NCBI GenBank assembly: GCA_902541175.1
Contig: CACBPP010000001.1
Coordinates: 198,923 to 262,922, forward strand
Length of the DNA stretch: 64,000 nucleotides
Direction: 5' to 3'
From: an uncultured SAR86 cluster bacterium
GTDB lineage: Bacteria; Pseudomonadota; Gammaproteobacteria; Magnimaribacterales; D2472
Part shown: piece after piece, positions 3,291 through 7,349 of the stretch
Layout of the letters: each line of letters opens with the position of its first letter
Numbering within the stretch: position 1 is the stretch's first letter
Program-made: the position numbers and the translations under genes
The notes under the pieces: model-generated
What the model was told of the DNA's origin: nothing
What the model saw: the letters and a program-made list of their open reading frames with translations, nothing else
Databases searched by the model: none

Positions 3291-3413
3291 GTTTTGTCCT
3301 AGTAAAAAATAATTTTTATTTAAATATGTGTTGATTATAGTTATTTTTAACACATAAAACTTTAAAAAAAGTTCTATTCTTTTGTGATTTTTGATTAACC
3401 GAGAAATCTCTCC

Positions 3414-3434
3414 TTATTCAACTGTGACTGACTT
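3414..3434 (-). repeat. glmS-tail copy R5 (K-S-V-T-V-E-stop)
   Basis: Read on the minus strand this is AAG TCA GTC ACA GTT GAA TAA, encoding K-S-V-T-V-E-stop, the same C-terminal peptide as GlmS, but with no glmS body before it. It shares the AAG TCA GTC start with the tail of the intact glmS. It is the outermost of the five copies, so it may be the original tail displaced by successive insertions. The inverted repeat of cassette E4 starts at the next base, 3435. Confidence 0.85.
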
Positions 3435-3786
3435 GAACAAAACAGAGAATTAGATTTTTTGTTCTGAAATCCTTTATGAAAACTCTGGTAAAACTTTATA
3501 TATTTTTCTTCCACTGCTAATTGTTATATTTTATTTTCTTGCCTTCTGCATCTGTAAACTCTCCAAAACATGCGATTATGAAGTCAGCAAGTGCCCAAAT
3601 GCCCAATCCACCAATTGTAAGTATCATGAAAATACCTGATTGTATTTTTCCGCAATAAAATCTATGAACCCCAAAAACACCTAGGAGAAAACATAATACT
3701 AGCAATAAGAAAAAATTTTTATCACTTGTTTCTGATGTGTTTATCACTTCATTCATTTTCTTCTCCGTTTAATTATCTGTTTTGTT
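3435..3786. mobile_element. Cassette E4 at the glmS hotspot, cargo TM2 gene
   Basis: About 350 bp lying between tail copies R5 and R4. It is bounded by a terminal inverted repeat: GAACAAAACAGAGAATTAGA at 3435-3454 and, inverted, GAACAAAACAGATAATTAAA at 3768-3787, 18 of 20 bases identical. The only gene inside is the TM2-domain gene, on the same strand as glmS. No transposase or integrase is encoded, so any movement would need an enzyme supplied in trans. Confidence 0.7.
3517..3756 (-). CDS. TM2-domain membrane protein
   Basis: A 79-residue protein with two hydrophobic helices separated by a short loop, and the TM2 signature FLGVFGVHRFYCGK followed by a glycine-rich second helix ending WALADFI (PF05154). 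TM2 proteins are small inner-membrane proteins of unknown function. A GGAG ribosome site precedes the ATG. The start is only 30 nt after the stop codon of glmS-tail copy R4, so after insertion behind an intact glmS the gene would have been positioned for read-through transcription. Cargo of cassette E4. Confidence 0.8.
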   Translation of the reverse strand: MNEVINTSETSDKNFFLLLVLCFLLGVFGVHRFYCGKIQSGIFMILTIGGLGIWALADFIIACFGEFTDAEGKKIKYNN

Positions 3787-3804
3787 CTACTCCACCGTCA
3801 CTGA
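3787..3804 (-). repeat. glmS-tail copy R4 (S-V-T-V-E-stop)
   Basis: Minus-strand codons TCA GTG ACG GTG GAG TAG give S-V-T-V-E-stop. Compared with the glmS tail it differs only at third codon positions. It separates cassettes E4 and E3, and both inverted repeats begin at its edges. Confidence 0.85.
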
Positions 3805-3948
3805 ATGTTTTCGTTTGCAGAATAAATTTCTTGTAGAAATTTATATATTTTTTTTCCATATAAAAAATTATACAATAATTTTAATTGTAACCTTTACTTC
3901 TCATATTAAAGATGGTAAGTTTGCGTTACATTTAATTGGAGAATTAAT

Positions 3949-4356
3949 ATGATTGGAGAATTAACACACATAATGGGAGTTTTAACTGGATGGGTTGCTA
4001 TCTTAATGCCAGTACTTCTGATATGGGTTATTTTTTACTACAGTACAAAAAATGATAAAGAGAAATATGCGACTATGGTAGAAATTGCTAAAAATCTAGA
4101 AAACCCTTCTGATGTTGAAGACTTATTAGAAAATTTCAAAGAAAAGAAAAGACCAATAGACTACAGAAGAACTGGTGTCATTACTATATTTATTGGTTTG
4201 GGTTTATTTCTCTTTGGTTTAGTAAATATTGCAATCTTAAAAGGGGTTGGTCTTTTAGTTATATGTATTGGTTTTGGTTCCTTGATTGCTGGTTACATAT
4301 ATCCAAATAACAGTGAAGAAATAGACAAGGCAGTTGAAAAATTTGAAAAGAAATAG
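3949..4356 (+). CDS. DUF6249-like membrane protein
   Basis: A 135-residue protein with a hydrophobic segment near residues 14-32, a charged middle (residues 35-72, with paired Glu/Lys and predicted helix) and two more hydrophobic segments near 75-95 and 98-116. The plan resembles small DUF6249-type membrane proteins, but the match is by overall pattern, not a diagnostic motif. GGAG lies 7 nt before the ATG. It is followed 2 nt later by an XRE regulator, so the two are cotranscribed and may act as a regulator/membrane-effector pair. Confidence 0.55.
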   Translation: MIGELTHIMGVLTGWVAILMPVLLIWVIFYYSTKNDKEKYATMVEIAKNLENPSDVEDLLENFKEKKRPIDYRRTGVITIFIGLGLFLFGLVNIAILKGVGLLVICIGFGSLIAGYIYPNNSEEIDKAVEKFEKK

Positions 4357-4358
4357 TT

Positions 4359-4577
4359 TTGGGTAAAAATCATTACAAACTTCTAAACAATCTTGAGCGA
4401 TTCAGAAAAAAAGCAGGTCTGACTCAACAAGAACTTTCAAATAAAGCAGATGTTTCAAGAAAAAGTATCAATGCTATTGAAAATGGGATTTACGTGCCCT
4501 CAACCGTTCTAGCATTAAAAATATCAAAGATTTTTAATTGTAAAGTTGAAGATTTATTTGAACTGCCTAAGAATTAA
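4359..4577 (+). CDS. XRE/Cro-type small transcriptional regulator
   Basis: A 72-residue protein that is almost entirely one helix-turn-helix domain (LERFRKKAGLTQQELSNKADVSRKSINAIENG, then the LALKISKIFNCKVEDLF helix pair typical of PF01381). It begins with TTG at 4359, two bases after the stop of the membrane-protein gene; no ATG is available before the domain. Likely autoregulates the two-gene unit. Its stop codon at 4575-4577 lies in the right inverted repeat of cassette E3, so the repeat doubles as coding sequence. Confidence 0.8.
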   Translation: MGKNHYKLLNNLERFRKKAGLTQQELSNKADVSRKSINAIENGIYVPSTVLALKISKIFNCKVEDLFELPKN

Positions 4578-4591
4578 TTCTGCAAACGAAA

Positions 4592-4609
4592 CTATTCAAC
4601 CGTCACGAA
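4592..4609 (-). repeat. glmS-tail copy R3 (F-V-T-V-E-stop)
   Basis: Minus-strand codons TTC GTG ACG GTT GAA TAG. The V-T-V-E-stop part is intact with only third-position changes relative to glmS; the preceding Ser codon has become Phe, the only amino-acid change among the five copies. It separates cassettes E3 and E2. Confidence 0.8.
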
Positions 4610-4844
4610 GTGTATAAAGGTGTCTACTTGTTGGTTTATGAAATTTAGTCAGAAAATCAAGGTGCTTCTTTTTCATTATTTTTAATGTAAATTTTTCCAA
4701 AAATTGCAAATAAACCAAATAAACCAATTAACCACCATTTATAGTCACCTGCATTTAATAAAATAATCGTTACTATTGCTGCACCCCAAAATGGTGAATG
4801 GAGAATTTGAATTAATTTACTCATTTTTAATTAGACACCTTTAT
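4610..4844. mobile_element. Cassette E2 at the glmS hotspot, cargo 55-residue membrane protein
   Basis: Only about 235 bp, the smallest unit of the array, between tail copies R3 and R2. Its terminal inverted repeat has an identical 13-bp core, ATAAAGGTGTCTA at 4614-4626 and the same sequence inverted at 4832-4844, with partial matching on either side. The same core recurs at the right end of cassette E1, so E1 and E2 belong to one end-sequence class. Confidence 0.7.
4657..4824 (-). CDS. Small two-helix membrane protein (55 aa)
   Basis: A 55-residue frame from ATG 4824 to TGA 4657, short enough to be missed by common length cut-offs. It reads as an amphipathic start, a hydrophobic helix at about residues 12-24, a short polar turn (NAGDYKWW), a second helix at about 30-46 and a basic/acidic tail KNNEKEAP. 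I do not recognise a family. The start lies 20 nt after the stop of glmS-tail copy R2, and the repeat sequence AAAGGTG may serve as its ribosome site. It fills most of cassette E2, the best argument that it is a real gene. Confidence 0.55.
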   Translation of the reverse strand: MSKLIQILHSPFWGAAIVTIILLNAGDYKWWLIGLFGLFAIFGKIYIKNNEKEAP

Positions 4845-4862
4845 CTATTCCACGGTCACTGA
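4845..4862 (-). repeat. glmS-tail copy R2 (S-V-T-V-E-stop)
   Basis: Minus-strand codons TCA GTG ACC GTG GAA TAG encode S-V-T-V-E-stop; every difference from the true glmS tail is at a third codon position. It separates cassettes E2 and E1. Confidence 0.85.
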
Positions 4863-5522
4863 GTAGATTTAACTGTCTACTTTTAATTTTCTTCAACTTC
4901 CCTTCTCAATTCTGATAATGTTTTACCATTATATGTCCAAAATCTAGGTCCTTGGATCTTCCCCCAATTATAACCTTGTTCATTCATTAAAATTAATGCT
5001 GCACTTGAAAGAGAATGGTCTTGTCCTCGAAAATTAACTCTAGTTTTTGAAGTTACCTCACAAGTAATATTCTCATCTCTTGTAAATTTTAATGTTGTTC
5101 CAGGTTGGATATTTATCATATTAAAATTAAATCTTTCTCTTATTCTTGTCTCATTTTCAAAAGCAACTCTATCTTCTTCAGTTTCAAAATTTTCTTCCTG
5201 TGGGGTTACATCATTACCTGGTATCAAATCGAAAAAATGTATTAATTCTTCCTCAAGAATCTTAAAGAATTCTCTTCTGTTATTAAGTCTTTTGCTATCA
5301 AATGCAGCATGAAGTTTTGTTTCAACAAAATCCATGTCTTCTACCTCTTTTGCATAAATGCATTCAAATGGCAACGGAACTCCTGTGCTGTATAAAGATG
5401 ATAGTCTTTGCTCAAGATTGGTGGTTTTGCCTATTTTTACCAAATCTGGCATTGCGGGGTTTGTTAAAACGTAAATTATTCCTTTTGACATTATTTTATC
5501 TATATAAAGTAGACACCTTTAT
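4863..5522. mobile_element. Cassette E1 at the glmS hotspot, cargo GIY-YIG/RAMA nuclease
   Basis: About 660 bp directly behind glmS, ending at tail copy R2. Imperfect terminal inverted repeats lie at 4861-4881 and 5508-5528, 17 of 21 bases identical. They share GAGTAGAT at the outer edge and GTCTACT at the inner edge, with a diverged middle. The right end carries the same ATAAAGGTGTCTA core as cassette E2. The nuclease gene takes up 609 bp of the unit. Being next to glmS, it should be the most recent insertion. Confidence 0.7.
4883..5491 (-). CDS. GIY-YIG nuclease (T5orf172/MUG113 type) with C-terminal RAMA-like domain
   Basis: A 202-residue protein. Residues 5-90 form a GIY-YIG fold of the T5orf172/MUG113 subgroup: GIIYVLTNPAMPDLVKIGKT, then LEQRLSSLYSTGVPLPF and a later Glu-containing helix (FVETKLHAAF). 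The C-terminal 60 residues (VNFRGQDHSLSSAA, then a conserved W and a final LRREVEEN) resemble the RAMA domain found with restriction and DNA-modification proteins. The middle is acidic and variable. Such nucleases occur in phage-defence loci and mobile elements; which applies here is not shown. It starts 31 nt after the glmS stop, on the same strand, and is the cargo of cassette E1. Confidence 0.75.
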   Translation of the reverse strand: MSKGIIYVLTNPAMPDLVKIGKTTNLEQRLSSLYSTGVPLPFECIYAKEVEDMDFVETKLHAAFDSKRLNNRREFFKILEEELIHFFDLIPGNDVTPQEENFETEEDRVAFENETRIRERFNFNMINIQPGTTLKFTRDENITCEVTSKTRVNFRGQDHSLSSAALILMNEQGYNWGKIQGPRFWTYNGKTLSELRREVEEN

Positions 5523-5543
5523 CTACTCTACAGTGACTGACTT
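5523..5543 (-). repeat. Native glmS tail R1 (K-S-V-T-V-E-stop), insertion hotspot
   Basis: The last codons of the intact glmS, AAG TCA GTC ACT GTA GAG TAG. This is the region that holds attTn7 in other bacteria (the TnsD protein reads the glmS 3' end). Here four other copies of the same peptide-coding end lie downstream at 4845, 4592, 3787 and 3414, each separated by a cassette with inverted-repeat ends. Confidence 0.85.
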
Positions 5544-7349
5544 TGCTAAATTTCTTGGTTGATCAATATCGGTTCCTCTTAACAAAGCTACTTCATAAGA
5601 AAGTATTTGAAGAGGTATCGTATATATAATCGGCGTCAAAAGAAAGTCGCACTTTGGCATATTGATTAGTCTTCCAGACTTTAAATCCATTGAAATTGAT
5701 GGATCAGAAAATACATATAAAGTTCCACCCCTGGCTTTAACTTCTTCTAAGTTAGAAACCAACTTCTCAGCTATCTCACTCTCTGGTGCTAAAGCTATAA
5801 CTGGCATTTCTTCATCAATTAAAGCGAGTGGGCCATGTTTTAACTCGCCAGCAGGATAAGCCTCTGCATGAATGTAAGAAATTTCTTTAAGCTTTAGTGC
5901 TCCCTCTTTAGCAATTGGATAAAAAATACCTCTGCCTAAAAACAAAGCATTATCTTTATTGGCTATTTCAGGTGCTATTTCTAAAATTGTGTCTTTAAGC
6001 TTTAAAGTTTCTTCAACAGTTTCTGGCAATGATCTTAATGCTGTTATTACTCTTGTTCTTAGCTTTGGATTTTTTTCTCTGCTTTTTGCAAGAGACAAAG
6101 CCAACAGCATTAAGGCTGCAAGTTGAGTAGTAAAGGCTTTTGTAGAAGCAACTCCAATTTCAGGACCAGCGTTGGTAAATATTGAATACTCTGATTCTCT
6201 TGTAAGAGAACTTGTAGGAACGTTGCATATACACAAAGTCGATAAATAATCTTTTGCTTTTGCATATCTTAATGCTGCAAGAGTGTCTGCTGTTTCTCCA
6301 GATTGAGAAATTGTGACAAGAAGAGAATCATCATCCACATGAGGATTCCTATATCTATATTCAGAAGCATAGTCTATTTGTGTAGGAAGTTCTGAAATTG
6401 CTGAAAACCAATTAGCTGCAACTCTTCCAGCGTGCAAGCTTGTTCCACAGGCCACTATTTGGACTCTCTTAACTTTTTCAAACATTTCAGATGAGCCAAG
6501 ACCAAATATATTATCTAAAACGTCATCTCCGCCTACTCTTCCATCAATCGTCTTAAGAATCGCTTCTGGTTGTTCATAAATTTCTTTTTCCATAAAGTGC
6601 CGATATTCACCTTTAGATGTAGCTTGACTTGAAATATCTATTTGAGAAATCTCTCTTTCAACTTTCTTCTTTGACTCATCAAAAATGGTATAACTCTCAG
6701 ATGATAATTCTGCAACGTCTCCGTCTTCTAAAAAAATAAACTCGTTTGTCAGTTGGCCTATTGCTAAAGGATCTGAGGCAGCCAAAAATTCATCCATTCC
6801 AATCCCTATTAAAAGTGGAGATTTGCTTCTAGCAATAATAATATTTTGATCGTCTTCTTTGTCTATGGCTGCTATTGCATATGCACCATCAAGCTTTTCT
6901 TTGGTTAAATACATCGAATCCAACATGTTGTTTCCTTTATTAAGGAAATATTCAAGAAGGTGAGCTATTAATTCAGAGTCTGTTTGAGATGAAAAAGAAT
7001 AACCTTCCTTTTTTAAAAAATCTTTAAGATCTAGATAATTCTCAATTATTCCATTGTGAACGATATAAACTCTTTCATTTGACATATGTGGATGTGCATT
7101 TTCTTCTGATGGTTCTCCGTGAGTGGCCCATCTAGTGTGAGCAATACCAAGCTTGCTTTTTGGCTTTTCAGCAATCATTTTTTCTTCAAGTAGTTTTACT
7201 TTTCCTAGGGTTCTAAGATGAGCAATTTGGTCTGTTTGGTGAAGAGCGATTCCAGCAGAATCGTAACCACGGTATTCCATTTTATGAAGCCCTTGAACAA
7301 GCAACTTTCCAACGTTACGATTTGAGGCAGCAGCTATAATTCCACACAT
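5523..7349 (-). CDS. glmS: Glutamine-fructose-6-phosphate aminotransferase (isomerizing)
   Basis: A full-length 608-residue GlmS, making glucosamine-6-phosphate from fructose-6-phosphate and glutamine, the entry step to peptidoglycan and LPS amino sugars. The N-terminal MCGI gives the catalytic Cys of the glutaminase domain, with HTRWATHGEP further on. Two SIS isomerase domains follow (VACGTSLHAG and LFLGRGIFYPIAKEGALKLKE). The C-terminus LAKSVTVE is intact and matches the E. coli protein, although four cassettes have landed behind it. It lies 6 nt downstream of glmU and is probably cotranscribed. No glmS ribozyme is expected or seen. Confidence 0.97.
   Translation of the reverse strand: MCGIIAAASNRNVGKLLVQGLHKMEYRGYDSAGIALHQTDQIAHLRTLGKVKLLEEKMIAEKPKSKLGIAHTRWATHGEPSEENAHPHMSNERVYIVHNGIIENYLDLKDFLKKEGYSFSSQTDSELIAHLLEYFLNKGNNMLDSMYLTKEKLDGAYAIAAIDKEDDQNIIIARSKSPLLIGIGMDEFLAASDPLAIGQLTNEFIFLEDGDVAELSSESYTIFDESKKKVEREISQIDISSQATSKGEYRHFMEKEIYEQPEAILKTIDGRVGGDDVLDNIFGLGSSEMFEKVKRVQIVACGTSLHAGRVAANWFSAISELPTQIDYASEYRYRNPHVDDDSLLVTISQSGETADTLAALRYAKAKDYLSTLCICNVPTSSLTRESEYSIFTNAGPEIGVASTKAFTTQLAALMLLALSLAKSREKNPKLRTRVITALRSLPETVEETLKLKDTILEIAPEIANKDNALFLGRGIFYPIAKEGALKLKEISYIHAEAYPAGELKHGPLALIDEEMPVIALAPESEIAEKLVSNLEEVKARGGTLYVFSDPSISMDLKSGRLINMPKCDFLLTPIIYTIPLQILSYEVALLRGTDIDQPRNLAKSVTVE

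Follow-up and report, generated by a model that had tools for sequence, protein, structure and literature searches.

A variable array of small cassettes bounded by copies of the glmS 3' end in SAR86 bacteria

The cassettes behind glmS

The window analysed here is a 64,000-nucleotide stretch (G000:C1:198923-262922, counted below from its first letter) of a 1.16-Mb assembly, 90% complete, from an uncultured bacterium of the SAR86 cluster. According to PMC3569297, members of this cluster are ubiquitous in ocean surface waters and uncultured. Behind the glmS gene of the window lie four small cassettes in tandem, and each junction between them holds a copy of the last codons of glmS, in the following called the tail. 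The five tails, including the functional gene end, start at 5523, 4845, 4592, 3787 and 3414 and are all found on the glmS (minus) strand, as a preliminary description of the locus had reported. That description gave the tail as (K)S-V-T-V-E-stop throughout, which holds exactly for four copies without the lysine; the copy at 4592 reads F-V-T-V-E-stop (TTC GTG ACG GTT GAA TAG), and the K before S is present only in glmS itself and in the outermost copy. The exact tail pattern has four hits in the whole assembly, all within this array. The four units between the tails measure 678, 253, 805 and 373 bp from tail to tail, somewhat more than the approximately 660, 235, 790 and 350 bp given before. 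Each of them does possess its own terminal inverted repeats and one or two small genes, and none encodes a recombinase (Table 1).

Table 1. Features of the glmS array in the window.
Feature	Position	Strand	Remarks
glmS	5523..7349	-	608 aa; SIS 5e-56, GATase_6; full-length relatives 82-99% identity; last codons are the presumed attB
Tail copy 1, functional glmS end	5523..5540	-	TCAGTCACTGTAGAGTAG; presumed crossover AC at 5533-5534, position deduced from cassette-pair comparisons
Cassette 1	4855..5532	-	678 bp; end repeats 5506-5528/4861-4883 (83%); arm symmetry 16/22
T5orf172 (GIY-YIG type) protein, cassette 1	4883..5491	-	202 aa; Pfam 1.2e-17; PADLOC PDC-S57 1.7e-74
Tail copy 2	4845..4862	-	TCAGTGACCGTGGAATAG; AC 4855-4856
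Cassette 2	4602..4854	-	253 bp; end repeats 4829-4844/4614-4629 (94%); arm symmetry 16/22
Hydrophobic small protein, cassette 2	4657..4824	-	55 aa; open reading frame call; relatives 67% and 71% downstream in G031 and G032
Tail copy 3	4592..4609	-	TTCGTGACGGTTGAATAG; first codon F, not S; AC 4602-4603
Cassette 3	3797..4601	-	805 bp; end repeats 4572-4598/3802-3828 (89%); arm symmetry 19/22; 70% relative in G028
DUF6249 membrane protein, cassette 3	3949..4356	+	135 aa; Pfam 2.8e-17
HTH_3 (XRE type) regulator, cassette 3	4359..4577	+	72 aa; Pfam 1.6e-14
Tail copy 4	3787..3804	-	TCAGTGACGGTGGAGTAG; AC 3797-3798
Cassette 4	3424..3796	-	373 bp; end repeats 3770-3792/3430-3452 (87%); arm symmetry 19/22
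TM2-domain protein, cassette 4	3517..3756	-	79 aa; Pfam 3.2e-17
Tail copy 5, outermost	3414..3431	-	TCAGTCACAGTTGAATAA; AC 3424-3425; presumed original glmS end
Presumed original glmS downstream flank	3391..3413		holds ATTTCTCGGTTAATCA (minus strand, 3392-3407)

The small protein of cassette 2 has no Pfam match at E 0.1, and the left end of this cassette, that is the end facing glmS, is also present in two other genomes. Both genes of cassette 3 are opposed to the direction of glmS. Beyond the outermost tail, ATTTCTCGGTTAATCA repeats the stretch 5550-5565 of the glmS coding sequence in inverted orientation, with 14 of 16 bases matching, and in a locus with a single tail (L109) glmS is directly followed by the same kind of inverted-repeat flank, so that the flank in the window would represent an unoccupied glmS site. 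Left ends of this kind also occur inside arrays (G025), which points to portable ends. The inverted repeat spans the stop codon and could fold as a stem-loop at the end of the glmS mRNA.

Occurrence of the array and movement of its cassettes

For a broader view, the glmS downstream flanks of 25 loci from one genus, including the window, and of 80 named loci were collected. These 105 loci became 104 after L145, which is without the gene end, was set aside, and 82 distinct ones after duplicates were removed; nearly all are labelled SAR86, while a few carry just the label Gammaproteobacteria or gamma proteobacterium and one, L158, that of SAR92. In the 673 kb of downstream DNA that was scanned, 193 displaced tails are found on the glmS strand, 130 of them exact and 63 with one mismatch, that is with one changed codon, compared to 1 and 0 on the other strand. 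The preliminary description had called for a search for alleles with zero to several cassettes, and such variation does exist: 66 loci come with 5 kb of flank or more, and 58 of these hold one to nine displaced tails within 10 kb, the other 8 none. It had also named two outcomes that would speak against mobile cassettes, namely genes at fixed positions in related genomes and cassette boundaries without tail copies. Neither was seen, as the cassettes differ among close relatives and their boundaries lie at the tail. In the two genomes G029 and G016, with a glmS that is 99% identical to that of the window, no cassette gene of the window was found in the interval from glmS to the conserved gene that follows.

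The order-wide sample comprised 203 genomes of the SAR86 order, many of them incomplete, with assemblies of 0.7-1.8 Mb. The tail pattern is present in 153 of these genomes, and at least two exact copies on the same strand (up to 10) were counted in 105, from a hand-made transcript of the hit table that reproduces the figure of 153. In a class-wide sample of 365 Gammaproteobacteria outside the order, by contrast, an inspection by eye found such copies in only 5. One of these 5 (L198, G550:C15) has two glmS tails 980 bp apart and no obvious arms.

The delimited units numbered 196, of which three shorter than 150 bp were dropped. The remaining 193 cassettes have a median length of 678 bp (131 are shorter than 1 kb) and fall into 148 families, 122 of which were seen once. 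Representatives of these families contain 232 mechanically called open reading frames (ORFs) of at least 60 aa, and 198 of these are co-oriented with glmS, which would permit read-through; cassette 3 of the window is an exception. Cargo families were assigned in scans of 149 of the 154 ORFs of 110-600 aa, shorter and longer ones being left out, and the following refers to the first 25 of 79 Pfam, 187 PADLOC and 110 PHROG families. Pfam families among these include DUF805 (7), MORN_2 (5), HNH (4), Exo_endo_phos (4), sulfotransferases (3) and Mrr nucleases (2) besides others, while the PADLOC matches include restriction and candidate defence families, among them the phage-defence candidate PDC-S57, which is matched by the T5orf172 protein of the window. 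Two cassettes, in L042 (G025) and L128, are unusually large with 5,230 and 5,337 bp; they have similar right ends (...gtaggataaag) and two ORFs each of 749-882 aa, far above the usual cargo.

The cassettes move horizontally. There are 43 pairs of cassettes from different genomes that are at least 95% identical over 90% of their length, and in 39 of these pairs the glmS genes of the two hosts share less than 80% nucleotide identity (ungapped, over 1,470 nt). Cassettes with identities of up to 99.7% reside in genomes whose glmS is only 62-78% identical. A unit of 248 bp, for example, is 99.6% identical in two genomes with a glmS identity of 66.7%, and six genomes carry a 1.6-kb unit that is 98.3-99.5% identical in five of them (glmS 62-78%). 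Cassette 4 of the window has a counterpart in L125 (AG-349-N21) at 96.8% identity, the glmS identity being 74.5%. The identity of such cassettes stops at the tail, and the 30 nt outside near-identical cassettes are on average 41% identical. The first 30 nt inside the cassette agree at 88% at the right end and at 71% at the left end. Some lineages have whole blocks of adjacent cassettes in common. One gene (MNRKF...) is found in cassettes of 663-683 bp that have different left ends in G001, G017 and G023 than in G025 and G026, with the divergence lying upstream of the start codon; the right ends of these cassettes differ as well, and the gene has seemingly been re-packaged with new att arms. 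Altogether, it is practically certain that the locus represents a real, general and mobile cassette array of SAR86.

Exchange point and cassette ends

For mapping the exchange point, the third codon positions of the tail served as markers in the 39 near-identical cassette pairs whose hosts have a diverged glmS. In the tails at the right end, positions 3 and 6 on the cassette side differ in 7 and 10 pairs, whereas positions 9, 12, 15 and 18 on the outside differ in 26, 24, 21 and 21. At the left end it is positions 3 and 6 that lie outside, and they differ in 25 and 22 pairs, compared to 13, 13, 5 and 9 for positions 9, 12, 15 and 18 on the cassette side. Positions 7-8, the dinucleotide AC, differ in none of the 39 pairs at either end, and a family-wise comparison gave the same trend. 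The cassette boundaries lie at this AC, where the allegiance of the tail switches from one neighbor to the other, and this appears to be the 2-bp exchange point that is characteristic of elements moved by a large serine recombinase (LSR). It follows from the switch that a displaced tail is a hybrid, in which the first six bases derive from the preceding cassette and the last ten from whatever comes next. Among the 63 displaced tails with one mismatch, the mismatch lies in the codons for S or V, that is in the right-arm half, in 48 cases. The tails probably still encode the glmS end because their left half becomes the working gene end on insertion and would then be kept by selection.

The comparison of arrays of the type A-C with arrays of the type A-B-C gives the same picture. 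In three such cases, one of them with two units in the place of B, joining at AC fits 18, 17 and 17 of the 18 tail bases as judged by eye, whereas taking the whole tail of either neighbor fits only 14-16. The idea that each cassette inserts into the tail and rebuilds it has held up: cassettes vary among relatives, they are bounded at the tail, and the half of each tail that faces glmS moves together with its cassette. The further suggestion that older cassettes are successively pushed outward is plausible, though not necessarily as the sole route, since the three comparisons suggest that units were gained, lost or re-joined within arrays and since some lineages share cassettes in blocks. Folding the RNA of four junctions yielded indecisive z-scores between -1.5 and -2.3.

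Arm symmetry was scored as the matches between the two ends of one cassette over 22 positions outward from AC, with left and right ends shuffled among cassettes as control. The ends of the same cassette match at 12.6 of 22 positions, compared to 8.4 for shuffled ends, and the excess is found at 10-28 from AC, with no clear excess at positions 1-9. About half of the cassettes (103 of 193) reach 14/22 as inverted repeats around AC, compared to 8.4% of shuffled pairings. Tyrosine recombinases exchange strands over 6-8 bp. For serine integrases, by contrast, PMC3783163 describes attP half-sites with a zinc-domain (ZD) motif at 16-24 around a central dinucleotide. A two-base exchange with dyad arms 10-28 bp out fits this LSR attP geometry, and dyad half-sites reaching to about 25 bp from the center are indeed seen in the averaged ends and in the four cassettes of the window (16-19/22), although 63 of the 193 cassettes score 9/22 or less. 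This weak symmetry may result from missed tails or from asymmetric ends.

Recombinases, related systems and the origin of the stack

The enzyme behind the exchange was sought in the cassettes and genomes. A tyrosine recombinase was considered first and then rejected, as the genome of the window has only two PF00589 hits, XerD and XerC, both above the NCBIfam equivalog cut-offs; members of the genus have 0-3 such hits. Serine recombinases (PF00239) are found in 6 of the 203 genomes, 5 of them over the cut-off, and only in AH-326-D05 (G031) does one lie at glmS. The first cassette of that array, with 6,047 bp, encodes a 551-aa LSR with both the Resolvase (6e-24) and the Recombinase (1e-11) domain, whose stop codon is 33 bp from the cassette end, and additionally a REP_ORF2-G2P protein (1.6e-6, barely above the curated cut-off). 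The arms of this cassette match each other at 18/22 and recur at both ends, with at least 20/22, in three cassettes without an LSR (G012, G025 and G026). The preliminary description had proposed to look elsewhere for a recombinase with the same ends, and this LSR qualifies inasmuch as its arms are shared, but it is encoded within the array and in 1 of 193 cassettes only. By sequence, its nearest solved relatives are the integrases of SPbeta (YokA) and TP901-1. Its best NCBIfam match is CcrB, CcrA also being matched, but the relation is distant (8e-23, 80.8 bits compared to a cut-off of 900). A phage collection contained only distant matches to the LSR, all below 60% identity, and a plasmid collection no match to the replication protein. 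In tblastn searches of the 193 cassettes and 10-kb flanks with three LSRs, XerC, XerD and one small resolvase (not that of G124) as queries, nothing was found beyond the AH-326-D05 cassette.

The remaining PF00239 candidates were rejected. Those of G026 (L180, G026:C1:250674; 525 aa) and G088 (L179, G088:C2:1414; 519 aa) are different LSRs away from glmS; the 13 and 9 kb around them contain no tail, and their last residues (VELxGIEPxTxC...) presumably indicate a tRNA-type site. The frames of G107 and G124 are short with 213 and 210 aa, and G150 has a broken relative, a fragment about 0.5 kb from a contig end for which 10 kb of sequence contained no tail. Some arrays have small ORFs with a helix-turn-helix like that of PF07508, which were likewise dismissed as recombinases, as they are without a catalytic domain. 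A small helix-turn-helix protein of about 60-85 residues is encoded in 10 of the 193 cassettes (the first cassette of L039 in G031, and cassettes in G025, L097, L110, L128, L129, L136, L156, L157 and L161). One tested member matches the Recombinase domain of LSRs (PF07508, 3.6e-5) and the G031 member matches no Pfam family; in 7 of the 10 the gene begins no more than about 100 bp from the glmS-side end, and the protein is possibly a regulator or a directionality factor.

Elements that stack at the end of a gene are known from other bacteria, and the initial statement that no described element has this structure was too strong. Both the staphylococcal cassette chromosome (SCC) at rlmH and the ssrA islands of Dehalococcoides form stacks at the 3' end of a gene; copies of this end mark the junctions, and some members are devoid of a recombinase. 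SCC islands are tens of kb in size, and their cassette recombinases are of the serine type. According to PMC7029136, SCC and SCCmec insert at an att site in rlmH (orfX); their junctions hold direct repeats that differ from element to element, and there are composites in tandem as well as pseudo elements without ccr. The SAR86 array likewise has junction repeats of the target gene end, but the target is glmS rather than rlmH/orfX and the host a marine gammaproteobacterium. Neither ccrAB nor ccrC is present; the genome of the window has no serine recombinase at all, and only the distant CcrB-like LSR occurs in a cassette of one other genome. The cassettes of SAR86 also differ by their median of 678 bp with often a single gene, by a recombinase in 1 of 193, and by their diverse arms. 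The Dehalococcoides islands (DsiB/DsiA) are, according to PMC3146451, arranged in tandem behind one essential single-copy gene, with 20-bp repeats of its 3' end, and the newest islands presumably lie near the gene. The recombinases are Ccr-like serine enzymes, and 15 of 31 islands are without the integration module while 16 have it (PMC3146451); the vcr islands measure about 12 kb. SAR86 shares with them the tandem elements behind one essential gene, the copies of its 3' end and the members without recombinase, but the target is the coding gene glmS instead of the RNA gene ssrA, and an LSR is present in 1 of 193 cassettes instead of a module in 16 of 31 islands. The array is hence not an SCC, but it works like the SCC and Dehalococcoides islands, at an integron-like cassette size; new in comparison to the known kind are the target, the cassette size, the rarity of the recombinase and the clade-wide spread. 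Our literature search, which did not cover subscription papers and preprints and does not establish absence from print, found no description of a glmS cassette array in SAR86. The hypervariable region of SAR86 in PMC3569297 concerns outer-membrane genes, and glmS is not mentioned in the accessible part of that article.

From the architecture of the junctions and from the one LSR-bearing cassette with its shared arms, we consider it probable that the array is an SCC-like system driven by LSRs, with integron-like miniature cassettes that are mobilized in trans. A circular cassette would carry an attP-like site composed of the right arm, TCNGTN, AC, NGTNGARTAR and the left arm, and the predicted circle junction would read right arm - TCNGTNACNGTNGARTAR - left arm of one cassette. 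The AC of the cassette would recombine with its counterpart in the Thr codon close to the glmS stop, by which the cassette is spliced in. The last codons of glmS would then come from the cassette, and the former gene end would lie farther outward, beyond the right arm of the cassette. Repeated insertion of this kind, presumably next to glmS as the main route, would build the stack. The LSR-bearing cassette of AH-326-D05, with its replication-protein-like ORF, may be an autonomous member and the others non-autonomous ones that are mobilized in trans, like SCC elements without ccr. The cassettes of the window can only be non-autonomous relatives of LSR elements at most, since neither they nor their genome encode a protein with the Resolvase and Recombinase domains.

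Several observations weigh against this. Within the tail, positions 9 and 12 are only partly linked to the left end, with 13 of 39 pairs differing at each, and the agreement just inside the left end is only 71%, which is low because some near-identical bodies have different left ends. No serine recombinase was found in the 90% complete assembly of the window, and only 1 of the 203 genomes, a set with many incomplete ones, has an LSR at glmS. No circular form was found, and three junction-pattern scans of a viral collection gave no hit; scans of this collection with the LSR and the replication protein of AH-326-D05 found no relative. The arms are so diverse that one enzyme is unlikely to serve all cassettes, and the LSR could be a passenger of its cassette. 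The rarity of the LSR is the weak point, and reflects either rare autonomous members, or other enzymes for other arm types, or indeed a passenger.

The last of these options leads to the strongest alternative, a site-specific mobile array in which an unrecognized recombinase or transposase, possibly host-encoded, acts at AC. It would account for the scarcity of the LSR, for the many unrelated arm sequences and for the weak symmetry of 63 cassettes. However, the exchange at two bases and the dyad arms at the spacing of the ZD motif are LSR-like, the LSR gene abuts an att end, its arms recur in cassettes without it, and the tyrosine recombinases of the window's genome are limited to XerC and XerD. 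The DEDD transposase of IS110/IS1111 elements (PF01548) was found in none of the 203 genomes, this being the one transposase family searched genome-wide. We therefore regard a different enzyme as unlikely, yet as an option to be taken seriously.

Far less probable is a dependence on XerC/XerD or an integron-type mechanism, even though single-strand exchange by a tyrosine recombinase at a folded site would also yield a point crossover. Integrons are arrays of small, exchangeable and mostly co-oriented cassettes at one site with the recombinase acting in trans, and the SAR86 array resembles them in the size, variety, exchangeability and prevailing orientation of its cassettes. XerC and XerD are moreover the sole tyrosine recombinases of the window's genome, and both score above the threshold of NF040815, a XerA-type model that mentions integron integrase in its description. 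They pass the XerD or XerC equivalog cut-offs, however, and stay below the dedicated integron-integrase models TIGR02249 and NF011946, which no protein of this genome passes, so that IntI is lacking. In attC sites conserved boxes lie outside a variable loop, whereas here the arms flank a conserved core; the site is the end of a coding gene, with a central core between dyad arms, and the host gene is rebuilt by the cassettes. The junction architecture thus looks different from attC. Xer recombination also relies on 6-8 bp of overlap homology, while the bases beside AC vary freely.

Static repeats, arising by local duplication of the glmS end or by homologous recombination among old neighbors without site-specific mobility, are very improbable; recombination between flanks could move the shared blocks, but near-identical cassettes in unrelated contexts lose their identity at the tail, and the synonymous tail differences follow the neighboring cassettes. 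On account of the junctions, a Tn7-like transposition can practically be dismissed: glmS is the attachment gene of Tn7 and its 3' end the target, but Tn7 inserts downstream of the gene with a 5-bp duplication, whereas here the crossover lies at AC within the last codons, each cassette brings the new gene end along, and arms vary from one cassette to another without terminal repeats common to all, in agreement with the preliminary description, which had already distinguished the array from a Tn7 insertion.

SAR86 may possess a third bacterial route to gene arrays beside integrons and composite SCC-type islands, a proposal to which we give an even chance. It would consist of a bank, spread across the clade, of miniature cassettes that often hold a single gene and capture an essential coding gene's 3' end, with a serine integrase from rare autonomous members supplied in trans to diverging att arms, and it would provide a streamlined ocean genome with a shared and exchangeable accessory pool that includes candidate phage-defence genes. 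The wobble-codon analysis maps the exchange point from the sequence alone, and natural attP/attB pairs are offered on a widely conserved gene end. This makes it testable whether cassettes of down to 248 bp without a recombinase move in trans at serine-integrase sites. For the biology of SAR86, a locus that captures genes, and that shows repeated tails in 105 of the 203 genomes searched, is a concrete source of strain variation, and the glmS array a predictable place for accessory and defence genes.

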